Assembly (NCBI GenBank): GCA_030737835.1
Contig: CM060850.1
Coordinates: 28,809,716 to 28,873,715, forward strand
DNA length: 64,000 nucleotides
Source of the DNA: Acorus gramineus
Lineage: Eukaryota > Streptophyta > Magnoliopsida > Acorales > Acoraceae
Direction of reading: 5' to 3'
Shown here: positions 1-21,456 of the stretch, one piece after another
Numbering within the stretch: the first letter of the stretch is position 1
Layout: each line of letters starts with the position of its first letter
Made by a program: the position numbers and the translations under genes
Notes under the pieces: model-generated
Database searches by the model: none
What the model was told of the DNA's origin: nothing
Seen by the model: the letters and a program-made list of their open reading frames with translations, nothing else

Positions 1-438
1 CCTCCAAACGCTCAAAATCTTTTTGATATTCATTGCCGATTATAACACAAAATAATCAGAATTCCATCTCGTTAGAACATTTAAACATAATGATTTGCTA
101 CATGTGATTTTTTCCTCTCTAACACATTTCTTGAATATTTGTAACCTTGAAGAAGAACTCTGCATATACTTCACACTTTCTCAAATGTGAATGACCCGCT
201 AACTTCATAAATACCTTCTTTCACAATGAGGTTTAAAATATGAGCAAAACATGTCACATGACAGAATTCACCATCCACCAACAATGCATTCCTCTTGTTC
301 AATTTCATTTTCAGATTTCTTATAGCAGCATCATTAAAATTTGCATTATCAACTGTCAATATAGATACCTTATCGATTCCTCAATCCAACAAACATGTTT
401 CTACCGCTTGTGCAATAGTCTCACCACGATATGCAGTT
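1..438 (-). mobile_element. hAT-family transposase remnant (RICESLEEPER/BED-type), broken
   Basis: Read on the minus strand, this stretch follows the core of plant hAT (Ac/RICESLEEPER-like) transposases in order: a GE..AQAVETCLLD block, then GIDKVSILTVDNAN, then HVTCFAHILNLIVKEG, then SSRLQIFKKCV, then LCLNVLTRWNSDY. The order and spacing match the family, so the identification is good. It is not functional: a stop replaces the usual Trp in the LLDWGI block, there is a frame change near 190, and another stop follows the TRWNS block. The element continues beyond the left edge, and neither the BED finger nor the C-terminal dimerisation domain is present here. Confidence 0.85.
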
Positions 439-728
439 GGAATTTGGGCGGGTTGAACTCAACTCGAACCTAACCCAAGCCCAACCATCAAAAAACTGAG
501 GAGGTCAATTGGAACTCACCTCATATAGTTTAGTTTGAGTTTAGGTTTGATTTACACTTGAGTTGAATTTTTGAGTTTATGTTAGATTCAGTTTTGGTAT
601 TAACAATGTTGTTATATAAAATAAGTTGAACTTCCCAATAGTTGCAACAAATAATAATCGATGGAAACAGACTATAGGTTGATATTTGATAACAAAATTA
701 TTTTCTATCCGAATGTACTCCAACCAGC
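439..728. other. Intergenic; short AACCC-type repeats, possible transposon subterminal DNA
   Basis: About 120 bases next to the hAT remnant are rich in short AACTC/AACCC and GAGTTTAGG motifs, like the subterminal parts of the hAT-type elements near 11.6 and 12.9 kb. The rest is AT-rich, with no gene. It may be the edge of the same old hAT element, but I could not find paired termini. Confidence 0.35.
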
Positions 729-1120
729 TCAAAGCCCTCCATCATCTATGTCGGTCATCTCATCGTCAGATTTTGTCTGACGACGGCCATATTTCTTGCA
801 AGCGTAGGTCACAGCACCAAAGATGAGGAGGAGGACGATGAGGAGTACAACTGTGAAGATTGGTATCCCCAACTTCTTGTTGATTATAATGTCTCCTGAT
901 GGGAAATGGAAGACCTCGCGCTGGTCGATGCCCTGGATAAATACACGAACAGAGAAGGGGGGGTGGGGAAGGTGAGAAAGAAAAAACACAAACATATATA
1001 AGAAATGAAATGAAGAGAAAGTCTGTGGTTACTAACCGCCGGCGGAGGAGAATCTGTGGAGGCGGACGTGCCGGAGATGACAAGTACTAAGATGATGAAA
1101 ATCATGAACCGGTTCTTCAT
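729..1120 (-). CDS. Small secreted/membrane protein, unknown function (2 exons, 95 aa)
   Basis: Exon 1 is 1037-1120 and exon 2 is 729-932, joined in phase 0 by a 104-bp intron (donor GCG|GTTAGT, acceptor CCAG|GGC). The product has a hydrophobic N-terminal signal peptide (about residues 1-21), a short Ser/Pro stretch, then a lumenal or extracellular piece containing FHFPSGDIIINKKLGIP. A single strong transmembrane segment follows (about residues 49-70, FTVVLLIVLLLIFGAVTYA), then a basic KKYGRR stop-transfer and an acidic tail DDEMTDIDDGGL. This suggests a type I single-pass membrane protein with a short cytosolic tail. I do not recognise a named family. The coherent splice join, signal peptide and topology argue for a real gene, but expression is not shown. 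Confidence 0.65.
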
Positions 1121-1903
1121 CCTTCAAAAGACAAATACAAAATGGTGAAGGGGAGATTCATAAAAAAAAATTATTCAAAAAAATGTGTTCATAAAAAATA
1201 ATCTGTATGACTCAAATCATTCCTGCCTCTCTTAAAAATGTACACAAAGTAAACTAAAAAAAAATAAAACGAATGCGATTTGAGGGAAAATCCAATGTAA
1301 TTTGCTTGCGATGATAAACGAATTGAAAATCTAATACAGAAAAAAGAAGATTGAAAAAAAAATTGAAGACAAGGTGAGAATGGTTATATTTGAGAAGTAG
1401 CTCTATTTGATTTAATTAATGAAGGAAAAAATGCATGTAGCCCCCTCAAAATTTATAGATATTCAAATGGACCTTTTATTTTTTGAATATCCATTTAACT
1501 CTCTTATTTTTGTCTTGATCAAACATTTAAGTCCCTAGGTTAATTTTTCACCTATTTCTAAACAGTATTATGAAAATATGCCGTCATTTAATGGTGGTCT
1601 GAAATTATATATTCATATAACATTCTAATATTTAATAAAAATTCGAAACAATCATTAGAATGATCCAAACATCCATATATACCACCCGAAAACATCGAGA
1701 TGAAATTTTATTGACCTCCAAAAAAAATTGATCACTCATGGAAGTGAATATCATATCTATTGTTCAGTTAAATATAATTTGAAATCACTGGCTAAGACTC
1801 CATTACCGAGAGGAAAACTTAAATATGAAGTAAGTAGTTACTCCTAAGAAACGAGGTGTGATTGATCATACAAGTACCAATGGCAAAGATCACAAGGGAG
1901 CCT
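1121..1903. other. Intergenic, AT-rich
   Basis: This holds the presumed promoter side of the small membrane-protein gene. Around 1438-1560 there is a stretch with phrases like CCCCCTCAAAATT and AAGTCCCTAGG, typical of decayed foldback MITEs, but I found no matching second arm. No gene is visible. Confidence 0.4.
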
Positions 1904-2122
1904 CTAGAGACTCACTACTGAGACCCCCACCCAAAAGAAATTTTTGGGTGGTGGGATAAGAACAAAAGCAAAAAGAGAGGAAAGAGAGAGAATGGGAAGA
2001 GGGCTAGCGGTGGCAAGGGGATGGGGGAAGAAGTACCGGAGGGGCAGTCGGAGGGGAGCGGGAGGCAGATCAAAAGGCGAAGCGGAGGAAGGTGCGACGC
2101 TAGGAGGTGGAGGAGCAGCCAT
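1904..2122 (-). CDS. Possible first exon or orphan ORF, low-complexity 72-residue reading frame
   Basis: A minus-strand ATG at 2122 is preceded by leader-like sequence: a GA tract (2209-2232 on the opposite strand), then ATTAGGGTTTCTCC, a telo-box motif usual in plant 5' UTRs. The frame starts MAAPPPPSVAPSSASP, is Pro/Ser/Leu-rich and ends at 1904. The protein resembles nothing I know, and the body is CT-rich, so it could be low-complexity noise. It may be a broken first exon or a captured gene start, because no following exon is evident towards 1.1-1.9 kb. The plus strand also carries a frame here (1944-2174), which I regard as a shadow. Confidence 0.25.
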   Translation of the reverse strand: MAAPPPPSVAPSSASPFDLPPAPLRLPLRYFFPHPLATASPLPILSLSSLFAFVLIPPPKNFFWVGVSVVSL

Positions 2123-2208
2123 CGTCGCCGACCTTGACGGATGGCTTGATTGGTGTTGGAGAAACCCTAATTAGATCCAAATCGGTTGTTGGAGAAACGA
2201 TTTTGAAG

Positions 2209-2232
2209 CTCTCTCTCTCTCTCTCTCTCTCT
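2209..2232. repeat. (CT)12 microsatellite
   Basis: Simple dinucleotide run. On the minus strand it is GA-rich leader-like sequence upstream of the frame at 1904-2122. Confidence 0.9.
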
Positions 2233-3009
2233 GAATTTTGAAGACCAGTAATGGTTCATTTGTTTTTCTTTTTGTATGTAAATCCTATTATATCAAAGAA
2301 GCTTTTTAAATTTAGTAAAGGGTTGTTGTGAGTAAGAACTAAGAAATGCGAGGGTACAATGCTTGTACATATGATTTTAATTGAAAAATTAAAAAAATTG
2401 CATAAAAATTATTATTTTTTAAAATACATCGAGAAAACCCTATTTAACTATCCCATATTTTATCTAAAGAATGTGATTTATAAAAAAAAATGGATTAAAA
2501 ATCGGTGCATGTAAAATCAGTTTAAATTGTTATTCATTCGGATAAACAAAAACCAATTTGTTTTAATCCAAATGAATAACAATCATTTTAAACAATAACC
2601 AAATAAATAACATCTAAAAAAGAATTTAAAACATGGTTTTATTTATCCAAATAAATAACAATAAATAAAAAAAAACAAAAATAAAATCAAAATAAAATAT
2701 TAAATATTCTTTATTAAAATTTATTTAATACATATACTAATTATAGGAAATATTTTTTAAATCTAAATTAATATATATTTTAATATACTAATGTGATATT
2801 ATTATTACAGTAATATAAGTACTACTAAATTAAGTTTAATGACATTTTATTAGTAATAGATATTATTATTATTCTATTCATATTAATATCAAAATATTTT
2901 ATATTACAAGTTAATTAAAAGCTACATTGGTTTATTATATAACAATATGTTTTTAGTATTGAAATATTAACTTTCATAATAAAATATATATTAATTGCAG
3001 CCTTATTAA
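2233..3009. other. Intergenic, extremely AT-rich
   Basis: Long runs of A/T with short ATT/AAT repeats. Nothing coding and no paired repeat termini seen. Confidence 0.5.
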
Positions 3010-3326
3010 CATCAAATATTAAAGTTAAAACACAAAACACAGCACCACAGTCATAGAGAATGAAAGAAACACTTATCATCCAAATAAGATATAAATTGCT
3101 CGCTATATCCTCACAAAGAGAGCATTTACATGACAACCAATTCACAAGTACAAGTAAAGTCAGTTGTATAGTTTCTATTATCATCAAATATTAAAGTTAA
3201 ACACAAAACACAGCACCGCAGTCGCAGAGAATGAAAGAAACATGTACCATCCAAATAAGACATAAATTGCTTGCTCACTATCCTCACAGAGACAGCATTT
3301 ACATGACAACCACTTCACAAGAACAA
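3010..3326. repeat. Tandem duplication, unit about 145 bp, period 172 bp, two copies
   Basis: Copy 1 (about 3010-3154) and copy 2 (about 3182-3326) share start, order and end: ATCAAATATTAAAGTTAAA, then ACACAAAACACAGCACC, GAATGAAAGAAACA, CATCCAAATAAGA, then GCATTTACATGACAACCA. They differ by scattered substitutions and one-base gaps. No gene is recognised in the unit. Confidence 0.85.
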
Positions 3327-3825
3327 AAATGTAAAAAACCCTCATATCTGAAAACTTTGATTGATACTCGATATAAATGAAAACTTTGTTGATTGAAAAC
3401 TAAATAACCCTCAATTTCGTTCATCTTTCTCTCAAAGTTTCATGACTTCTATAACTGAAAACTTTGATTAACACTCATTATAACCATTCCAATATTTGAA
3501 ACTAAAAACTTTTACGAGGGTGTGTTTTGATTTTTTTTAGAGCACAACAGCACCCTAACATCATTTTTGAACAAATCATATAAACCCTGGTTGAAAAACT
3601 AAAATGTAAAAAAAAAAAACCTACAATATAAACCCAAAAACCAAGCCAACCATATAATAAATCACACAAACCTAAATCGGGGTCGCCGGGCGTCGCAGGG
3701 ATCAAAGATGGCGGTCTCTCTGTGTTTTTTTTTTTTTTTTTAAAGAGGGTTGCAGAGAGAGGGTCAGAGGGGTTGCAGGGGTCAAATATATATTGAGGAT
3801 TTGAGGGTGATTTGGGAATTTTTTT
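3327..3825. other. Non-coding flank of the Pack-MULE
   Basis: AT-rich DNA with a short GC-richer part around 3675-3715 and a long T run at 3725-3742. I see no gene. The last bases before 3826 are a T run, matching the T run right of the element, as expected for a target-site duplication. Confidence 0.4.
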
Positions 3826-3945
3826 GGGTGAATTGTCCAAATACCCATGGACGAGCTATCCCATTTTTTCTATGCCCTTGGATTTTTTTTTTTACCCCTA
3901 CATTGCTGTCTCATTTTTTTTTATCCCTCACCAATGCCACATCAT
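3826..3945 (+). repeat. Left terminal inverted repeat of the Pack-MULE
   Basis: Pairs with the reverse complement of about 6492-6612. The arms match in order with small gaps in the T runs. The outermost bases are GGGTGAATTG, a common Mutator-like terminus form. Confidence 0.82.
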
Positions 3946-3959
3946 ATTTTACTATCTAA

Positions 3960-4110
3960 ACTACCCTTCCCTCCGATTCTTTTTCCAATCTCTCCCAAAT
4001 TAATTCATCTCCCCCCAAAACCCACAAAACATAAACTACTCTTCTCTCCATTTCTTCTCCCAATCTCCCTTAAAATGATTTATCTCCCTCCCAAAACCCA
4101 CCAAAATAGT
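3960..4110. repeat. Tandem duplication (about 75 bp x2) inside the Pack-MULE
   Basis: Two successive stretches run CTACCCTTCCCTCC .. CCAATCTC .. ATTCATCTCCCCCC .. AAAACCCACAAAA and CTACTCTTCTCTCC .. CCAATCTC .. ATTTATCTCCCTCC .. AAAACCCACCAAAA. Subterminal tandem repeats are frequent in Mutator-like elements. Confidence 0.65.
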
Positions 4111-4167
4111 AAAAAATGGTTTCTCTTCCCCCAACCCTTCTCTCTCTTGGCAAAAAAATGGTCACCG

Positions 4168-4432
4168 CCATTTGCTCTAATACCGTTCGCCTGAAATACT
4201 CGTCGACGATGCGGTCGAGGGTGCGGAAGACGAGAGGGCTGTAGACGAGGTACTTGAGAAAGCCCTCCTTGCTTGGTTACCACATGTCGGCGGCTGCGTT
4301 TGATGGTGGTGGTGGAGAGGAGTTGGGGTTGGAGCTTCATGGCGAGGAAGCGCATCTCCTTGGTGATGCCAGTGGACTCGCGGGGGTACTGCTTTCTGTA
4401 TCTTTTCCTCTTCTTTGGGATTGTGAATGTAG
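4168..4432 (-). pseudogene. Captured heme oxygenase (HY1/HO-type) gene fragment
   Basis: On the minus strand the first part reads KKRKRYRKQYPRESTGITKE then MRFLAMKLQ. This matches the plant plastid heme oxygenase block that normally reads KRYRKQYPGES.GITEEMRFVAMRL. After a degenerate Thr/Arg/His stretch and a frame change comes PSKEGFLKYLVYSPLVFRTL then DRIVDEYFRRTVLE, the next conserved HO block (normally W.PSKEGFLKYLVDSKLVFDT.ERIVDES...YFRRTGLER). Heme oxygenase opens heme to biliverdin for phytochrome chromophore synthesis. Only about 90 of roughly 280 residues are here. A stop follows the Trp before PSKEG, the frame shifts once, and the segment before YFRRT is short. CAC/CCA expansions lie in and upstream of it. 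It sits antisense inside a Mutator-like element and cannot make enzyme. Confidence 0.85.
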
Positions 4433-4906
4433 GTTATGGTGGTGGTGGAGAGAGGGTTGTGGTGGTGGTCTTCATGGTGGTGGTGGTGCAGCACCTGATG
4501 GTGGTGGTGGAAAGGTATAAAAAAAATTACATTGCATTCCCAATATTTGGCTTCAATAAGGTTATATTGTCTAAATCTCAACACAAGTCATGGAGAATGG
4601 GAAACTGATATCTTTTGGAGGTATTAGAATTTTCAATGTCCAAATAAAATTAGGAGACATTCTTTCGAACATAGATTAGCTCTCTTTGATCTTATATATA
4701 CATCTTTGTTTTCCTAGTTTGATATTTTTTTTTCCTACTATATATGCCTTTATAAAGCAAATGTCTTTATAATTGTTTATCAAGATTATGTAATTAATCA
4801 TTTACATATCTGTAAATTGATATTATATTTATGTAATTGGTTATTATATTTCTATAACATTGTATGTCTTTAGTTTAATTTCATAAATGGTATAATATTT
4901 CTGTTT

Positions 4907-5650
4907 TGTAAATGACAATTGGAGGGGCAAAAATTTGCTTTATCGGATTCGGGTAAACGGACTCCGCCTCTCCCGTTCTCTTCCGCCCGAACTCGCCTTG
5001 ATCCACCGAGCAGCCGCTCCTAAACGCCTTCAACACCGAGAGGTGGGGGGCCTGCAGAAGACCCTCCGACGCTCAAGTCAGTGAAAGTGGTCGACCAAAA
5101 GGGAATAGAAAACAGAAATTGTGTTTACCTCATGAATCCGTTCTTGCCTCTTATTTATAGTGGTGATGGAATGGTGCTAGGGTTCTGGATTGACCATCTC
5201 CATCAGACGGTCGAGAATCCCTGAATCATTATCCAGGAGACAAAAGATATGCTCCCTGATTTGGTCAATTATGGATTAACATATATATTCAGATTCCATG
5301 GGGATTTGGTGGACCAAGTTAATAATTATCTGATTTGGTGATTTGCATGGAATTAATGGGGATTGAATGCTAATAATTATCCCTTAATGCAGTGGATTTG
5401 TGTGGATCCATGCAGTAATTGGATGGATTACTTACTCATGACTTGGTCTGCGGTAATCGGTCGGATCCTCGAGCCGGACCCATTTCGGATTTGGGTCGGC
5501 TGTGCTGTCGCGTCGTCGGACAGTGAGACCGGTCACCAGGCCCATCAAGCTAGGCTCGCGCTCTGCGGATCGTCATTTAGTCTGGTCAAACCGGATGGGC
5601 TTCAAGATCCGACCCAATACTTTCAGCCAGAAAATTTGGCGCCTACAACA
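4907..5650 (-). mobile_element. Solo LTR, Ty3/gypsy-type, nested in the Pack-MULE (fossil)
   Basis: The 744-bp segment begins TGTAAATGAC and ends CGCCTACAACA, so it has the TGT..ACA form of an LTR, and it is flanked by GTTT on both sides (4903-4906 and 5651-5654). On the minus strand it carries a TATA-like CTATAAATAAG near 5148-5160, then TGACTTGAGCGTCGGAGGG, a phrase I associate with LTRs of plant Tat/Retand-type gypsy elements. GC content is well above the surrounding MULE DNA. No internal retroelement sequence or second LTR is present, so it looks like a solo LTR left by recombination. It is younger than the MULE, but its age cannot be derived without a paired LTR. Confidence 0.7.
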
Positions 5651-5859
5651 GTTTATGTCATGAGCATTATATTAATAATTCTGTTATAATTTTTATATGA
5701 ATGATAGTTTATGTTGTAATTGGACATTACATTGATAGTTCTTATGTTGTAGTTGTTACATTAGTATACATTATGTGATGTTGTAGTTTCTGTTGCATTG
5801 TTGATATGTGAATGATTCTGATAAATCATTTATTACATTCTATAATTGCTTATAAATTT

Positions 5860-5970
5860 TATGTAATTGGTCATTTATATATCTGTAAATTGATATTACA
5901 TTGCTGTAATTGGTCATTACATTTCTGTAAAGTTGTATCTCCTTAGTTTAATTTCATTAGTAGTTTTTGT
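5860..5970. repeat. Direct repeat of 4793-4893 within the Pack-MULE
   Basis: Both copies share ATATCTGTAAATTGATATTA, then GTAATTGGT.ATTA, then TTAGTTTAATTTCAT in the same order and spacing. One copy lies on each side of the solo LTR. The unit is AT-rich and not coding. Confidence 0.75.
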
Positions 5971-6491
5971 AATTGGTTATGTAATGTTGTAGTTTCTGTA
6001 ATTGCTAAAGTACTTCTACGAAAATATTAATGTTGTTACATCTTTAATGTAGCTTGGACAGTGGATTCTTCATTATGAAGTACATTGAATGTCAAGTTCG
6101 AAAGCTTTTAAGTGGATTCGATTTCACTCAAGAATGCATGAAGAGAATCAGGAGGAAACAACAATTGATTTCATTAGAATAGAAAGGCAACATTGTAAGT
6201 CAACAAGTTGATGTATCTATTTTAATGACACTTGTAAAAATATATATATAACAATTTTGTGTACGTTGAATGCATTTATAGATGATAATGACAGTACTTA
6301 CCGTTCATGAATATATTATAATGACATTGGAAATGTATCTATAATCATTTTGTATTTAACCATCTCTGTGTACATTTAAAGTTCTCTGTAGATAATTATT
6401 AAATATCTGTAACTATATGTATAATTTTTGTATGTTCACATTATATTTTTGTATTCCTGTAACTCTGCCTATAAGGGGTACTTCAGGTATT

Positions 6492-6612
6492 ATGAGAAGT
6501 CAGGAATAAAAAAAAATGAGACAACACTGTAGGGGTAAAAAAAAATAAAAAGAAGTTCAGGGGCATAAAAAAAATTGAGGTGTTGGTTCAAGGGTATTTA
6601 AGCAATTCACCC
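6492..6612 (-). repeat. Right terminal inverted repeat of the Pack-MULE
   Basis: Reverse complement of the left arm. It ends CAATTCACCC at 6612 and is followed by nine T, matching the T run on the left. Confidence 0.82.
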
Positions 6613-6947
6613 TTTTTTTTTCTTTCGTTTCTGTGTGAAAAGGAGAGGGTTTTGATTGTGTTAGGGTCAGGTGGGTGGGTTTGGTTAGGGCTGTGGTTAA
6701 GATTTACCTAACTATACATCAGATTTAATGTGAAAAAAAAAATATTTATTAAAACAAACAAATACTTATAAGGGATGAATCATTTTGAGAGTATATACCG
6801 CTTTCAAATACTGCTATGTGCAACCTTTTACTCCTACATTTTTACATAAAATCAACATTTCTAAACATAAGACTTGTTTAATGAATTACTCATTTCAGAA
6901 TGGAAATTAATAATAGTGGTATTTATCCTTATTTAATTTGCTGGCAG
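6613..6947. other. Right flank of the Pack-MULE
   Basis: Starts with the T run next to the terminal repeat, then a GT-rich stretch (about 6640-6705) and AT-rich DNA. No gene recognised. Confidence 0.4.
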
Positions 6948-7998
6948 ATTCAGCTCATGAGGAACAAGTGTATTTTGCAAGGAACTCAACCTCAGGAAGT
7001 TCAAGTGGTAAGTAGAGAGCCTTGTCATATTTGAAGGAGTGTATGGTGCCAACTTGGAAAGTTCATGAATTACTCATTTAAGTTACAGCAAGTGGGATAA
7101 ATTAAGAAAGGGATTTTTGCGTGTATACAATAAAAAAAAATTTAGTTTTTTTATATCATCACAAATAAAATATTTATTTTTATACCATTAGAATTTTTCT
7201 TAATAAAAAAATGTGCATCTCCTTTACCCCCTTTTAACTAAAATGAAACTTAACCATAGTTACCTTTTAACCAAGAATTAAAAATGACATAAATAACATC
7301 AACATAATATTTGTCATAATATAAATAATTAAATATAATAACTTAATTAATCTCTTGTTTTTTCCAAATCAACCATGAGTCATTCAACTTTATCCCTTCT
7401 TTTCTTTCAATCAAGATCTAAGTTTTTTTTAAAAATTTGTTATTTTATAAAATATATGATTAATTAATCTTAAAATACTTTTATGTCATTTCTATTAAAG
7501 TAAGTATTACTAAATACAAAACAAAAATTGTTATTTTATAAAATATATTATTAATTAATCTTAAAATACTTTTATTTCATTTCTTTTAAAGTAAGTATTA
7601 CTAAATACTATGTCTTAGATAATAAATAATTTGTATATTTAATTTTTATGTTTGGATTTTAGAGAAAATCTATCATTTTCGTATTAAAATTAATTTTTTT
7701 ATTTTTATAAATATTATATTTGGTAAGGTAAAATATGCATAATAAAAAAATAAGGGTAATTTGGTCATTTATCCAAGACTTTAATGGTTTTAATAGAAAT
7801 TTAGATGAAATTTAACTAGAATGATAAATATGCATAATTTTTACATATTCTAAAAGACCATTAATAAATTAAACCTCGAATTCTAAATTAATTATCATAA
7901 CAGATGGTAGTTCATATATTTATTCAAGGGGCTATAAAAATGGGCATGCAGTCTATGCGCAGTACGTCTCATTGGGCGCGTATTTGTACGGATTCTAA
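6948..7998 (+). pseudogene. Two-exon relic of an unidentified host gene
   Basis: An exon-like segment 6948-7017 has a good acceptor (GCTGGCAG|AT) and a strong donor (AGTG|GTAAGT). A second, 7904 onward, follows CATAACAG. Joined, the phase is kept and the product reads DSAHEEQVYFARNSTSGSSS then DGSSYIYSRGYKNGHAVYAQ, with a stop at 7996-7998. The same frame beyond the stop stays Tyr/Gly-rich (YGTSSTYVYGGEY) with more stops, as in a decayed longer exon. The first exon needs an upstream exon ending in phase 1, and none is visible. I do not recognise the family. A truncated functional gene is less likely than a relic left behind among transposons. Confidence 0.45.
7438..7608. repeat. Tandem duplication, period 91 bp, two copies
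   Basis: TGTTATTTTATAAAATATAT, then TTAATTAATCTTAAAATACT and AAAGTAAGTATTACTAAATAC occur at 7438-7517 and again at 7529-7608. They lie inside the putative intron of the two-exon relic. Confidence 0.85.
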
Positions 7999-8617
7999 AA
8001 TCATGATCCATATATTACAAGATTCAGATATGGGACCTCCTCCACTTATGTATACGGTGGAGAGTATATTTAAATGCAAAGAGCATAAAGAGATGGTTCA
8101 CTTTAAAAAAAGTCAATCGAAACGACAGTACAAGCTCCCAAAAATCATGTTTTGTTCAGGATATATTTTGAGAATCCATTGATCAAAAGGTTAATACTTA
8201 TTAGTTAATAATTTGCACAGGATTAATTCTTCCCAACTTTTGTATATACTATGGTTAACAATTAATTAAAACTTTTATATGAGCGTAGCCACGATCAAAA
8301 CCTACTCTTGTATATTATAAAACAAGAGATGAATGTATTAATGTGTCATGCATTAAACACAACCCAGATCATGCAAACCCATATATACATATATATGTTT
8401 ATATGCAATTAACCATGGGCAAGGGAAGTTGCAGATACTGATAAGGCATCATTAGGTCTGTCTGGCAGCTATGGATACCCTATTTACTGATATGTCCTGA
8501 TTCAATTAATTTCTTTTATGGTAATGATTTTTTTTTTTTAATTTGTAGTCAACATGAAGTTGATGGGCATGCAAGAGAGGAAAATATTCCTGTCATATCC
8601 TTAGGTGTGTTTGGATA

Positions 8618-9434
8618 AGGATACTGGGTGGCTGAATTGGAATTGAGAATTTGGTTTGGATAATTTTTAGAAGAGAGACTGTGATTGAAAAAGAGAGACT
8701 GAGAGGATTGAGAATCTCACTCAATAAGTGGTATTCTCCCAATGGCCCAATCCCTATCTAGCTGAACTGTGAAAAAGATTTTTTTTATCTAGTTTTTACA
8801 TTTATTTTTTTAATAATAACCGATTTTTCCATTTTCCTAATAATAACCGACTTCTCCTAAATCCCAACTCCCGCCTCAGCCAATAAAAACCAATCCATAA
8901 TTAATAATTAGCCATTAAAGCCGAAATTTAAAAAAAAAAACATCTCCACCAATCTTCACCGATCCACACAGCCATCTCCAAACATCCGATAATTAAAAAA
9001 AACACACAGCCAATCCTCCATCTCCACCAATCCACACAGCCAATAATTAAAAAAAAACACAATTAGCCAAGTAAGCTGAAACTTCTTCTTCTTCTTCTTC
9101 TTCTTTTTTTGTCATTCATCAATGCATGCATGGATTTAACCAATAGTAAAATATTCTTTTGTGTTTATTAAATATTCTTTCATGCATGTGTTAAATAACG
9201 TAAAATTGAATTTACGTTAACATGTGTTAGATTTTGTAGAAAGGGTATTTTTAAAATATATATTTTTTATATTGTAATCCAGACATTACCAAACACATGA
9301 TAGGAATCTCAATCATGTTTTTTTCATGTTCCATATTAAACAAGTTGATAGGATCCTCAATCCCAGTCCACCTGAATTTGAAATCCCATGATTCACAGAA
9401 TCTTAATCCCACATGTCAACTAAACAGACCCTCA
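8618..9434. mobile_element. Possible Tourist/Harbinger-like element (weak)
   Basis: The left end GGTGTGTTTGGATAAGGATA and the reverse complement of the right end GGGTCTGTTTAGTTGACATG resemble PIF/Harbinger termini, and both arms contain GATTGAG/GGATT motifs. TSDs are not clean. The inside has two related stretches with ATCCACACAGCCA and a TTC/CTT microsatellite (about 9082-9113). No transposase is seen. It could be an aged MITE or two chance-similar ends. Confidence 0.35.
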
Positions 9435-10621
9435 ACAAGAAAATGAGAGAGAAAGAGAAAGAGGAGAGAGAGAAAGAGGGGTTGTTGCATTTGCATACCT
9501 AGTGAACATGTTTTTTTTTAATTAAATTGAATCACATTTCTTCATCTTCTGACACTAGTTAATCCACACACATTACTGCACACCCCTAATTTCTCAATCC
9601 AAACTTCTTACATCAGTCGCTTTCAAATGCCATATGACTCACTGGATAAAAGATATTTGTATTATACTTTACCCACAACATCAATTTGCATTCCTCGGTA
9701 AAAGTTACAAAGAAAGAAAAAAAAAAAAAAGATGAACATGGTTTTGTTTTTCATATTATGATGAAAAACAACAATGGTTCTCAATTATTGTATATTTTCT
9801 ACATGATCATGATTTTATGGGCACCTAAAAATAGACTGGACGTACTCTTCATACAGAAATGCCTGAGGGAGAGAGGATTTTTTTTTTCATCCAATTTATA
9901 AAAGCTTAATTAATAATTACAGAAGTTTACCTATCAAAGTAGGTTCATGTCAAATACTCATGTTTTTTTTATAAAAAAAAATGAGCGGATCAACTAAGTT
10001 CAATATTCTCTTTGTCGTTATGTACAGCTAAAGCATATAATTAATAGATATGATGACTAGGAGATAAAATAATCAAATAATAGTTTGCCTTGGCAAAGCC
10101 AAAAAATCAAAGTAAACCAAGGAATCACTAGGAGATAAAATATGACTTTAAATATATGCATAAAAGAAATGATGATTTATATCATAAGATGTATCAATTG
10201 TGTAACAAAACAAGCAAAAAACTATGGAGATCCACATACATTAAAATCTGGAAAGACAACCATACAAAGCCATGTGGAAGATCATATTTTTGCCAATGAA
10301 TTTTGGAAAGAAAAAAAACAACTCATAATACAACCTAGGCTTCTTTGTGAAGGACGAGCAAGGAACATCACATAAAAATTTCCTGAAATGTAGGAGAGGT
10401 ACATATGGAAAACAAAATGGACAACTCATAAAGCATACCGGCCAAATCTCTTAAGAGGAAGCACAGCAAATAGAATGTCACCAACACATAAACAGCTCCA
10501 AAAACATATCTTGGAGGGCAAGCACAACCAAAAAAGAAAATCAATTTAGGGTGATCTGTTGGACTGTTAAGCTCCTTGTAGTGTAGTGGTCTTCTGCTGT
10601 TTAATTAAAAAAAAAAAGGAA
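9435..10621. other. Intergenic, no gene seen
   Basis: AT-rich DNA with GA-rich stretches near 9440-9480 and a poly-A tract near 9715-9732. Only short chance ORFs are present. Confidence 0.4.
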
Positions 10622-11075
10622 AAATCCAAATAACTTCGTGAACTGCTTGAAATCCATGTAACCCCTGAAAACACCTATGTAAATCAAAATAACCGCCTGA
10701 GTTAATGTTCGTTAACAGACTAATAGACTATGATTATTTTGTGAATTTTTTGTCTGGTTAACCCTGGTTGAGAACACAGCTAAAAATCTTTTACAATGTG
10801 TTCAAATACGAAAACTCCTCTTTAAATGACAATTTTACTCTTCTGGATAGGATTTTATAATATTTTCAGAAGGGTAAAATTGTCATGTATAGAAGATTTT
10901 TCGTATTTTTAATAAATTGTAAGGGTTTTTTTGATATACTGTGTTTTCAGACAGATGACAGAATATTCATTGTCTGTGAACTGGAAGTTTAGCTCACGGG
11001 ATTATTTTAATTTACATAGATGTTTTCAGGGGGTTATATGGATTTCATACATATTACAGGGGGTTATTTTGGATT
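10622..11075 (+). mobile_element. Foldback MITE, family A copy 1 (long inverted arms, MULE-like)
   Basis: The left arm reads AATCCAAATAAC .. GAAATCCATGTAACCCC .. TGAAAACACCTATGTAAATC. The reverse complement of the right arm reads AATCCAAAATAACCCCC .. GAAATCCATATAACCCC .. TGAAAACATCTATGTAAAT, over roughly 150 bp. The centre also folds (AATGACAATTTTACTC with GGGTAAAATTGTCATG). It has no coding capacity. Two related copies occur at 21796-22248 (opposite orientation) and 55195-55590 (same orientation). Confidence 0.85.
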
Positions 11076-11553
11076 GTGTTGACTGTATCAAATGTTATTT
11101 TCTATAAATAAATTGAAAGAAGGCTAAAAAAGCAATTAAAAAAGAAATTGGGGTTATTTTGAAAAATTGCCCTATCCCCATTGGATGTATGATGTATCGG
11201 ATGTGATTCATCTGCATGGTTGGTGGAATCTCTTTCAATGAAACAGATATTTATTAGCATATCATTGATGAAGCTTATTAATTAGGAATGGGTATCTGTC
11301 TCCAACTAGTACTTTATCAACAAACAATACTAATTCTACCTCTTTCAAAAAAACAAACAATACTAATTCAAAGTTTCAAAAGTAGATGGGTGGCATCCAA
11401 TGTTTTATAAACCGCAATGTTTCAATTTCAGTTACCCCGATGCTTAAACCAGTCCGGACTCATTTAATAATAATAAAAATAAAGTATCTTTTCAAGCCAA
11501 ACGGGTTTATGCTCATAGTTAAGCTTGTCAATTATTTAAAAAATATATGTATC

Positions 11554-12418
11554 TAAGCCTATCAACGGGTCAGATCGAGTCTAGACTCGGACCCGATTAC
11601 ACGTGTAATATACTCGACCGATTTGGATCCAACCCGATTTGGATCCAACCCGAGTTGGATCCGACCCGGCAGACCCGAACAAACAAACGGGTTGGGTCCG
11701 GGTCCACCCCGCCCCGACCCGTTGGACCCGAGACCCGATTGTTTTATTAAAATATGCTCATATTATAAGACCATTAGTATTAGTTGATATATAATTTTAT
11801 TTCTTACTTAACTTATTTTTGTATCCACAAGTTTATAAATCATAATCATAACAAGCCCATAAATCATAAGTCATAATCATAACATTTTTTCTGTTGTGTT
11901 GATGTTGCAACTTGCGAGAACTTGATTGTTTAATATATAATAAACTTAGTAATGTATTGTCGTCGGTTTGTTTTGAACAATTAACTTATTAGTTTTTGAA
12001 TTTGTATAATTAATTAGTTTGTTGCATGATTTATGTTTATTATTTAGGTTTTAGTGTCTATTGTTTTGAATGTTGTTTAGGTTTATATTGTTTTGAATGT
12101 TTGTATAATTAGTTATGTTTATTATTTAGGTTAATATGTTTTTTATGTTAGTGATTATTGTTTTGAATTGTAGAAAAATTATATTCAAACATAGTCTCAT
12201 TAATAATAGTGTTTTATTACAAAAAATTTCAAATAGAATGATAATACAAACAAATACATGAGCTCTTCTTGTTTTTTTTTTTTCACCAACCTTCCGGGTC
12301 GGGTCGAACCCGGACCCGACCCGGGTCCGACGGGTCCAGGTCCACATTTTCCCAGACCCGCTGGATCTTACCACGGGTTGGGTCCGGGTCCACCCCGACC
12401 CAACCCGTTACAGGCCTA
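11554..12418. mobile_element. Non-autonomous hAT element with 8-bp target-site duplication
   Basis: The perfect 8-bp direct repeat TATGTATC lies at 11546-11553 and 12419-12426. The ends are inverted: TAAGCCTATCAACGGG on the left and, in reverse complement, TAGGCCTGTAACGGG on the right. Inside each end lie clusters of CCCGACCCG/GGGTCC motifs (11575-11740 and 12290-12405), and the 550-bp core is AT-rich without a transposase. The 8-bp TSD, short TIRs and subterminal repeats are those of a hAT element. It is 865 bp, and the intact TSD suggests a fairly recent insertion. Confidence 0.88.
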
Positions 12419-17038: not shown

Positions 17039-20000
17039 TTAATAGTATGAGCTGGAACCACCACTGCCCATGTATCCACTACCACTCAAGCTACGACCAG
17101 AGTACAGGGATGAGTAAGAACTACCACCAACCTGGAAAATGTAAGGTAACAGTTAAAATAAAATATATAAAATCAATAGAAAAATTAGAGTTTCACAGTA
17201 ACTTAGCATACATCGGAGCCACGTGACAGATAACCACTACCGAAGCTAGGCGAATACATCCCACCAACATCACTGCTGCTTAATGACCCTGAGTACACAT
17301 TGTTAAAGATTACTACTCAGATATAATAGGTGGCAAAAGATTCAACTAGAAAGAAAGGTCACTATACTGTACCTCCACCATACCCCATCCCTTGACGACT
17401 ACCATACATTCCACGTGGTTCTTCACCAGATAGCGCACTTCTACTGCCACTATATCCAAGATGAGATCTTCCAAGCCTAAAATAATTAGGCAAAAGAAAT
17501 GAATCAAATAATTAACAAAGCAAAGCAAACATTTGATCATCATAAATGATCCACCAAATCAAACAGACCTATCACTATAAAGATCCTCATACTGAGCACT
17601 GCCACCAACTCCATAGTCAATACGAGCCCTCGACTGGCGAACACTTACATCGGCATACCGTGGAGGAATATCATCCTTTAAGATGGTGAAATCAAATTAG
17701 CTTTCACTTTGTTGAAAACATAAATCATGAAGCCAGGAAGATAAGAAACAGAATAATGACTGAAATATTACTAACCAATGACGAGTATGGGCGCTTAGAT
17801 CCAGCGACTGAGTCATAATCACGACCTCGTCCCTCACGGTATGCTGGAGGAGGCCTTTCAGGCCTCCGCCCATATGTTTCATCAGCATAGGCCCTCCTAG
17901 CAGAATTACGTGGTGCACCACGGGGTGGTGCATCAGAATAGCCAGGACCACGAGACATATATTCGTCCCTGTAAGACAATCGCCTCTCATCCACAAATCT
18001 GGAACCATATTCTGCAACTGCTCTGCTTCTGGATGGAAGTTCATCACGTCTGCTATAATCCTTTGGAATGCTCTTCGGATATGCAGGAACTGTTTTATAT
18101 ATTAAAAGGTATTAGAATGCAGTAATAGGCAGGTCGCAATTGCAGAAAGGCATTCCAATGCTAAACATTACCTGGTGGCCTCCTATCATAGGACCTTCCT
18201 GCAGGAGGCAATGGCCTGACTCTCTCCGATGCTGCCACTATAGGGCGCCTATCTCTGAAACTAATAGGCCTCTTGTACCCACGACTTGCAACTGACGCTC
18301 CACGACTTCGAACAATTCTTGTAAGCCCGCGATCAGGGAACCTGCGAGGTGGTTCACGATTCCAAAGTCCACGTCCACCTCGTGGGATCCCTCGGCCGAT
18401 CGTATGATCCCCTCGGACACTGCGTTTACCCCGGCCCTTCTGATGAGGCCTTGACAGCCTCGCCCGGACCTTTACCTGATCAATATCAAGACACGATTTA
18501 GTAACAACAAAAAGAAAAGATAGATATTTTTTTTTGGAAGTAATGCAAAAGATAGAAAATAAATAATAGATTGGAACAATATTCTGAATTTAATCACCAA
18601 TGTCGAGAAGCAAGCATCTAAACAGTGACCAACCTTATTGTCACCATCACCCAACTCAGCATTGTTAATGCCTTCAGCACACACCACTGCTGCATCATGA
18701 GTTTCAAAAGTAATAAATCCAAAATCCCTTCTCTTGGCGGAAGGCATGTTGCGAGCAAGTTCAATCTTTTCAATTACTCCAAACTTCTTAAGGTACCCTT
18801 TCACGCGATCCTCATCCCATGCAGGAGGTAAGCCATCCACGAATACAGTTTTAACCTGAAACAGTAGTTCCATGATTCAAAACCCAAACCTCCAAATAGA
18901 AAGTTCAAGATGGGGCCACACAATTAGAACAATATGGAGAATTGCAGAATCTAATGTCAAGTACTACAAGAAGAATGGAAGATAAAATACTTCATCAGAG
19001 CATTCCAAATCCATTCAATCCACAATACATGAACATATCTTTACTCCACTGAAAGAATGACCAGGATCATCATGCTGTACTGATGCATCCAAGCAACTTC
19101 AGAATAAAATTTACCTGTGCCATAATTTCATCATCAGGCTCAATGAAGGAATCAGCAAAAGCCACCTTCGCAGTCCTATCAACTCCAAACACAACATCCC
19201 TCTTTTGAAGACGTCTATATGCACCCATTGCATCTGAACGAGACGCAAATTCTAAAAAGGCAAATCCACGGTTCATCCCCTCATTATTGGAATCTTCAAC
19301 CAGACTCGCATCTTCAACATTCTCGATTCCATAATGTTTCAGCCTCTCCTTCAACTAAACTCATTTCCAATAGACACTGTCAATAAAACAGAACGCCAGA
19401 AAGGCATCCCACAAATATATAATATAATTATAAAATCATGTTCAAGATTACTTACGGCTTCCTTTGTCCATGTTTTACAAATGTTACCCAAGAAGAGTGT
19501 ATCACTGTCTTGACTAGGGGAAACACCACACTGTTTACCATTTACCTGGAAGCATTGCCAGTAGAAAGATAAAAGATAACATCCAAAAAAATGAATGGGC
19601 GACAATTCAAACTTTGGAGTAAGTAAACACATACCACTGGGCTTTTAAGTTGTGAAACAGCACGCTTTGCTTGTTCAACAGTTGCAAAACGAAGAAAAGC
19701 AAAACCCTTGTTTTTCTTGGTCTGAGGATTCATCATCAGCCGAACTTCTGTCACCTCACCAACTTCACTGAAGACCTTCCTAAGATCATCTTCTGTTGCA
19801 TCCTTGTCCAATCCCCCCACAAACACTTCAAATTCCTTGCGTTTGCGATGCTCCTTAACCACTTGATGGTGCTCTTCTTCCTCTCCAGCTTCATGCTCTT
19901 CATGCACATGTTCATCATCCTCTTCACCTTCAATATCCTCTCCACCATCTTCCAATTCATCATCAACCATATCACCTTCTTCTTCTACTTCTTCTTCTTC

Positions 20001-21456
20001 CACTTCTTCTTCACCCAGATCATCCTCCTCAACTTCCTCCACAGCTTCAGCCCCCTCTTCTTGGACATCCTCATGTACGATGTCTTTATCATCATCATAA
20101 TCAGGTTCATATTCAGGTTCATTCTCCTCAAGCTCTAAATGCTCTCCATTATCTTCCTCAACATAAGCTTCCTTTACATCTTTTTTGTCTGCATGAAGCA
20201 ACAAAATTTTCACTTGCTGTCCGAATGGGTTCCACAACTCCCCAAATCAGTAAAACGATAAATAACCAAACGTAGCACACATTTAAAACAATTGAGGAAT
20301 TGTTCCATCAAACACCATCAAATAATGGACTTTACAAATAACATATATCAGGAGCAATTAAAAGAAAATGTGTTTCCATGCCATAATATGGATCCAAGTA
20401 CACACACATCCAAAAAGGACAGAAACAGAAGTCCTACTTAAGATATAAACCAGATGACAAACAATAATGGAAATGAAAAAATCATTACTAGACGACAGTT
20501 GAGCTTCAAACACATGCACAGGGGACAATTTCAAACATTATACATCAATAAAAGTTCAACACCCTCATTCTTTCAAAACAATACAAATGTAAAGAAGTTA
20601 AAGTTCATCAGATAAGAAAGAAAATGCAACCAATAATCCAATTCTTTTCCTTCTAATCCAACACTCAGGATAAGTGCATACAAGTGATCATACTCTCCGA
20701 CAGACCTTTTTATTCCGTCTCCAAGTTTATTACAACCAATAGATCGATTATTTTACACGACCAATGTCAACATGAGTTGAAATACTTGGCGTGCATAACA
20801 AACCTCAAGTTGAAAGCTTACCAAACCCAAAATAAAAATACAGCAGAGAACCCTTCTGATCCATTAAACCTAAAATATCAATTACCTAGACAACTCTATC
20901 AATAGAATAAGGTTCAGAGAAAACAAAAATACAATTTTAGGAAGAGAAATAACACAATTGCACATGAAAAAAAACAACTTTTTCCCTCCCCGCAATCAAA
21001 ACATACAAACCGATATAATAATAAGCGAAATCAAAGCAAACAAATAAGAATAACACTCATGAAAGACGACAACAAAGATTTTCCCTTTATGATCTCAAAA
21101 ACCTGATCCGCAACAAAAACCCTAAATCAATCAACAATCAATTCAGATTCGAATCTACGAGGGTCCACAAAAGCAACAAATAAACAAAAGAAGAAATCCA
21201 TACCCTCCGTAGGCAAAATCTCGTTGTCCTCCAATTTCGGCTGCTTCACCTCCTCCACCACCGTCTCCGGTGGATTCACGACAACGACCTTCTCCTCCTT
21301 CTCCACCTTCACCTCCCTCTCCACCTGAACCTCCTCCACCTTCACCGGGACATCCCACGGCTCCTCCCGTTTCGTAGCGGACCTCGACGCCCTAGCGGCC
21401 GCGGCCTTCCTGGTTCCGGGGCCGGCGGTCGACCTCTTCGCCACTCGAGGAGGCAT
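17039..21456 (-). CDS. LFL2: hnRNP Q/LIF2-like protein with three RRMs (LFL2-like), 785 aa
   Basis: Eleven coding exons, all GT-AG: 21204-21456, 19635-20188, 19456-19545, 19115-19354, 18634-18855, 18172-18475, 17776-18089, 17569-17675, 17373-17476, 17212-17288, 17039-17131. Phases agree throughout and give 785 residues. The N-terminus is basic Ala/Arg/Lys-rich, then a long Glu/Asp tract (about 85-200). RRM1 (about 205-280) has VFVGGL and KGFAFLRF. RRM2 (about 285-365) has LFLGN and RGFAFLEF. RRM3 (about 382-455) has VFVDGL and FGFITF. An RGG/Arg/Tyr/Gly/Ser-rich tail ends SSSYY. This layout is that of plant LHP1-INTERACTING FACTOR 2 relatives. The acidic N-terminus and length point to the longer LFL2 member rather than LIF2 (about 500 residues). 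Family members are nuclear RNA-binding proteins linked to Polycomb gene control; the role here is inferred. Confidence 0.92.

Follow-up and report, generated by a model that had tools for sequence, protein, structure and literature searches.

The region between positions 3826 and 6612 of the window (the 64,000 nucleotides of Acorus gramineus DNA analysed here, from contig CM060850.1 of assembly GCA_030737835.1, lying on C4 of the 398.6-Mb genome) is a Pack-MULE that carries a fragment of a heme-oxygenase (HO) gene. This identification, already proposed in a first-pass annotation made from the sequence, is supported by the terminal repeats, the target duplications, the multi-copy family to which the element belongs and the donor gene that was identified. 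The HO piece was captured a single time and amplified afterwards, on the basis of a 2-nt deletion shared by 12 of 12 carriers and of a branch with support 100/100 in a tree of the right half. The element is ordinary in kind and its structure is well supported, its one unusual feature being the intron-free cargo. Its value lies in belonging to a multi-copy Pack-MULE family whose donor is clear and whose events can be placed in relative order, from capture through frameshift and amplification to LTR insertion. Coordinates are collected in Table 1.

Table 1. Features of the HO-carrying element and its flanks, in positions of the window
Feature	Position	Strand	Remarks
Left target-site duplication (AATTTTTTT)	3817..3825	.	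7/9 alike with the right flank
Non-autonomous MULE (Pack-MULE)	3826..6612	.	2787 bp in total, 2059 bp when the nested LTR is subtracted; terminal repeats and alignment to 10 further full HO copies
Left terminal inverted repeat, 106 bp	3826..3931	+	75.4% over 114 columns against the right end; recurs in the genome
CT-rich subterminal region	3932..4167	+	In part common to copies without HO (L057-L060)
Start of HO2 exon 2 (YFRRTVLE), fused to exon 1 without intron	~4175..4199	-	19/25 nt to donor exon 2
HO2 exon 1 piece, frameshifted	4200..4510	-	86% to the C9 HO2 gene; 213/231 core columns
Element interior up to the nested LTR	4511..4919	+	Common to HO copies
Putative nested solo LTR, TG..CA	4920..5647	+	Flanked by ACAAT/ACAGT (4/5)
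Right internal AT-rich region	5648..6498	+	Present in copies with and without HO
Right terminal inverted repeat, 114 bp	6499..6612	-	Pairs with the left end
Right target-site duplication (TTTTTTTTT)	6613..6621	.	7/9 alike with the left flank

Ends, target duplications and content of the element

The ends of the element (GGGTGAATTG.. and ..CAATTCACCC) are inverted repeats with 75.4% identity over 114 columns, and the inverted ends of about 115 bp in the first-pass annotation measure 106 bp on the left and 114 bp on the right. According to PMC4858842, terminal inverted repeats of MULEs are as a rule 100-500 bp long, a range that includes both ends. Runs of T are found on both sides of the element, as had been noted before. 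Because flanks lying in such a run say little alone, the duplications were evaluated over the family, taking the best left/right 9-mer and permitting offsets of up to 3 bases in both real and swapped-flank pairs. The 9-bp duplications were perfect in 7 of 15 copies and had at least 8 matches in 13 of 15, against 10 and 31, respectively, of 210 control pairs in which the left flank of one copy was joined to the right flank of another. The two copies falling short are that of the window (7/9, in the T-run) and L060 (5/9). In PMC4858842, MULE duplications are described as mostly 8-11 bp, with up to 2 mismatches tolerated in 9-11 bp, and at the level of the family the duplications found here are of this kind.

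The captured piece (4168-4510) has a GC content of 0.554 compared with 0.288 for the rest of the element and 0.585 for exon 1 of the donor. GC-rich cargo is given as a tendency among Pack-MULEs, and cargo of rice MULEs as GC-rich and derived from the 5' part of genes, in PMC4858842; the element follows this tendency, which is not part of the definition of the class.

In keeping with a Pack-MULE and with the first-pass annotation, no transposase was found by Pfam among the 12 ORFs scanned of the 34 listed with at least 40 aa, several of those scanned being located in the nested LTR. The longest ORF in the element has 136 aa, and the sole Pfam listing among the scanned ORFs was SR-25 (E 0.065, under its cut-off). 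MULE transposase domains (PF10551) are abundant, with at least 150 in the genome (150 of 1162 candidates were scored, all above the cut-off). One region, L062 (C4:19144000-19152000), was chosen for a subterminal match near a PF10551 match and read; it holds a FAR1/MULE ORF and has no terminal match to the element, and was set aside as the autonomous partner. No partner with these ends was found in this one region.

Inside the element we observed a 728-bp insertion that the first-pass annotation had not mentioned. None of the 10 other full HO copies contains it; in them position 4920 is followed directly by 5648, the two sides overlapping by a few bases. The insertion recurs in the genome, where 26 of 42 matches cover its positions 1-728 (a lower bound, 40 of 222 candidates having been scored), and some of the matches form same-strand pairs about 8-10 kb apart. 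The insertion is likely to be a solo LTR that entered the window copy later.

Pack-MULEs of rice were reportedly treated by Jiang et al. 2004. According to PMC4858842 and PMC8903248, the Pack-MULEs of rice and other plants have in common with this element the long terminal repeats, duplications of 8-11 bp, the absence of a transposase and a GC-rich piece of a host gene, whereas here the cargo spans an exon junction without the intron and the donor is HO2. In the literature collection searched, no paper was found that treats a Pack-MULE together with heme oxygenase.

One capture followed by amplification

Recurrence of the ends, on which the first-pass annotation had made its proposal depend, was found, the termini forming a family. 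The left 345 bp (end and subterminal region) gave at least 51 matches, with 40 of 158 candidates scored and some places giving two, and the right end gave at least 40 (40 of 169 candidates scored). Since candidates were scored only in part, the copy numbers for the ends, the LTR and PF10551 are lower bounds. The HO piece is present at no fewer than 12 places, the window included and the donor gene and a further fragment, L054, not counted.

The window copy was aligned with ten full HO carriers (L042-L051), a truncated carrier (L053) and four copies without HO (L057-L060), these last being the four best-scoring of the fetched copies without HO and the ones to which the comparison applies; L061, matched by its left end alone, was left out. 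The frameshifting 2-nt deletion (CTC--CAAC) is common to all twelve HO carriers. A GCC run is also 12 nt shorter in 12 of 12, which is weaker evidence as it is a repeat tract. In the tree of the right half (5648-6490), a region independent of the HO piece, 11 HO carriers lie on one side of a branch and the four copies without HO on the other (100/100); L053 has no right half and was not placed. The shared deletion, along with the fact that the 11 carriers that could be tested form one group, argues for one capture. The right halves diverge by 2.9-8.0% from the majority sequence, with pairwise identities of 88-94%, and this divergence between copies indicates that the spread was not very recent.

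Two carriers, L043 (C43:2563997) and L044 (C4:3281001), are sisters in the tree (91/85), and in both about 60-70 nt of the HO piece are reversed, which places sense and antisense HO pieces side by side. Folds of 170 nt gave -58.4 kcal/mol for L043, -48.9 for L044 and -41.9 for the window copy. In L051 (C3:23093000-23099200) an extra element end is located at 2814-2925, about 475 bp past the right end, as a tandem insertion might leave.

The captured fragment, its donor and the missing intron

Besides the other copies of the element, the best match of the HO piece is a gene on the minus strand at C9:10359.4-10360.2 kb, with 86% identity (E 9.9e-106), which supplies the HO parent that the first-pass annotation had proposed to look for and whose absence would have counted against its proposal. 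Its exon frames are open and its exon 2 scores above the Pfam Heme_oxygenase cut-off; the protein search does not alone show it to be intact, as the query was read from this gene. The donor lies outside such an element: no family ends were found in the 7.5 kb around it, where the HO piece was the sole match to the element at E 1e-5.

In the protein comparison, identity reached 82% over query positions 33-98. The 25-nt piece of exon 2, picked after the match was seen, agrees with the donor in 19 of 25 positions, the next best agreement in the donor locus and 52 kb of the window being 16 of 25. That the likeness arose by chance in a low-complexity stretch has a negligible probability: part of the match is indeed a CCACCACC repeat, to which many weak matches exist elsewhere in the genome, and nevertheless the nucleotide identity and its E value, the protein identity and the 213 of 231 matching core columns already refute it.

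The two consecutive HO blocks described in the first-pass annotation were found on the minus strand and in different frames; the 2-nt deletion accounts for their having been seen as two blocks. The match of the second block includes a TAA stop. Production of an HO protein from the element is ruled out by the frameshifting deletion in all 12 copies, and a coding role of the cargo is unlikely.

By its sequence the donor belongs to the HO2 type, Arg occupying the position at which HO1 carries the heme-ligand His. At the same site the donor has MRFVAMKLRNPNS and the HO1-like gene on C8 has MRFVAMKLHTRDQ; the donor reads MKLRNPNS, with Arg at the heme-ligand site, and the HO1-like gene of this genome MKLHTRD, with His, which is also the residue in the HO1 structures 7eqh and 7cka. 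The histidine of a catalytic HO1-type donor is absent. HO1-like loci were found on C8 and C75 (L055, C8:17156-17160 kb, and L056, C75:34-39 kb); they have equal exon layout and near-equal scores and are perhaps an uncollapsed haplotype.

In the donor, exons 1 and 2 are separated by a 90-nt GTAAGT..CAG stretch, taken to be an intron on account of splice signals and protein frame. The first-pass annotation had asked whether intron positions are kept; intron 1 is absent from the element, where exon 1 (..GTCGACGAG) is directly joined to exon 2. The least trimmed copy, L053, contains 5'UTR sequence, reaching at least about 44 nt upstream of the ATG, and a longer exon 1 (..TCCTCCCATCGTCG), followed by GTGAA and by exon 2 (20/25). 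It too has no intron and its exon junction is nearly complete, the joint being inexact (CGTCG-GTGAA-TATTTC). At this point about 19 more nt are missing from the 11 other copies.

A second HO2 fragment, at 2061-3204 of L054 (G000:C1:27373500-27379500), keeps intron 1 and is without element ends. It has 27-bp direct repeats (96%) and imperfect inverted GC-rich flanks, is split by a further stretch, and appears to be an independent duplication of this part of the HO2 gene. Since it keeps the intron, the intron is older than this duplication.

The missing intron can be explained if the element took up spliced HO2 sequence, by RNA- or cDNA-templated gap repair or from a retrocopy since lost, and was then amplified, an explanation to which we give slightly less than an even chance. 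The intron could also have been lost at the DNA level, by deletion or by a template switch that left filler, either while genomic sequence was being captured or afterwards; this, too, we consider a tentative reading, a little short of even. The inexact junction of L053 and the additional nucleotides missing from the other 11 copies fit such a loss, and the CATCGTCG found at the junction may represent filler taken from sequence directly upstream; junction filler is a known product of gap repair. Nevertheless, in a simple simulation a random deletion spanning the 90-nt intron takes 10 or fewer exon nt per side in only 0.45% of cases, and an originally exact junction could have decayed later, the chance of an indel within 8 nt of it being 26-39% given the 8-13 indels that we estimated by eye in L053. 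A donor paralogue already without the intron is a third possibility, although none was seen in the protein search of the genome. We give RNA-derived cargo in Pack-MULEs a low prior, and for this reason the spliced-copy and DNA-level readings are put near even.

Retrocopies (processed gene copies) share with the cargo the absence of the intron and, in L053, the inclusion of 5'UTR sequence, whereas the cargo stops in exon 2, sits in a DNA transposon and has an inexact junction. For loss at the DNA level it also counts that PMC8277862 treats gap filling accompanied by template switching as the standard model. Among the titles and abstract openings of the literature searched there was no case of intronless or cDNA-like Pack-MULE cargo, and cases may be in print. 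In an animal Pack-TIR survey (PMC8277862), captures of multi-exon genes that had no introns were, by its own statement, discarded, and such cases could be overlooked in this way. A spliced template, if true, would bear on the way in which DNA transposons gain host genes, genomic DNA being the source of the cargo in the gap-filling and tandem-insertion models as we read them.

Consequences for the donor gene and surroundings of the element

Taken together, the history that explains the element best, and which we consider very probable, is as follows. A non-autonomous Mutator-like element captured once the GC-rich 5' part of an HO2-type gene, comprising 5'UTR, exon 1 and the start of exon 2, the template probably being an intron-free HO2 copy. 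By the time of its dispersal to at least 12 places, the window among them, the HO frame had already been disrupted; the transposase would have come from elsewhere and acted in trans. The window copy was later interrupted by an insertion, probably a solo LTR. The cargo would then be passive sequence with no coding function, with weak siRNA crosstalk to HO2 possible.

A stronger effect, in which the window copy would be transcribed and 21-24-nt siRNAs from the HO piece would methylate HO2 or cleave its mRNA and so tune HO2, seems improbable to us. In its favour, the window copy and HO2 exons 1-3 have 15 exact 21-mers and 10 exact 24-mers in common, the longest run being 33 nt, and for L053 the corresponding numbers are 35 and 28. 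L043 and L044 carry adjoining inverted HO pieces, and crosstalk between gene-capturing elements and their donors is in print (PMC11986588, PMC13317346). Against it, the ten other copies have only 0-8 exact 21-mers and 0-3 24-mers, 8 of the 10 having no 24-mer, and no more than 13 nt are common to the element and the HO1 loci L055 and L056, compared on the same-sense strand. By sequence identity, siRNA crosstalk is possible for the window copy and unlikely for most other copies, and the window copy and L053 would be the likeliest to matter, if any copies do. Gene-capturing elements of maize and Brassica napus are presented as siRNA reservoirs in PMC13317346 and PMC11986588; common to these and to the window copy is a fragment with perfect 24-mers to its donor, whereas here the likeness is one of sequence identity and most copies are too diverged.

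The first-pass annotation had called the HO piece antisense, which holds for its orientation, the HO sense strand being the minus strand; as a statement about a transcript it is not supported. It had also connected the element with the phytochrome chromophore. This link is weakened by the HO2-type donor, with its Arg in place of the heme-ligand His, and the chain from HO through the chromophore to siRNA does not follow directly. Silencing a donor of this type would not, in contrast to silencing of HO1, directly block chromophore synthesis. Arabidopsis HO2, which has Arg, is reported as inactive and as having an undefined role in photomorphogenesis (PMC11634067), and an effect via this role is possible. 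The functional story is thus corrected to a donor of the HO2 type, non-catalytic in Arabidopsis, rather than a chromophore-making HO1.

Just right of the element, on the plus strand, a 60-nt exon-like stretch (6948-7007) lies between AG and GTAAGT. With its flanks it is found at three other places in the genome (84-86%), and these matches gave no named gene. Should it belong, as an exon, to a plus-strand gene that also has exons to the left of 3826, the pre-mRNA of that gene would contain the HO piece in antisense orientation. Left of the element, the four ORFs scanned had no Pfam match at E 0.01, and positions 1-12000 of the window gave no Rfam match at gathering scores. Further to the right, two ORFs on the minus strand (18472-20246) contain RNA recognition motifs (PF00076) and are probably exons of a gene for an RNA-binding protein.
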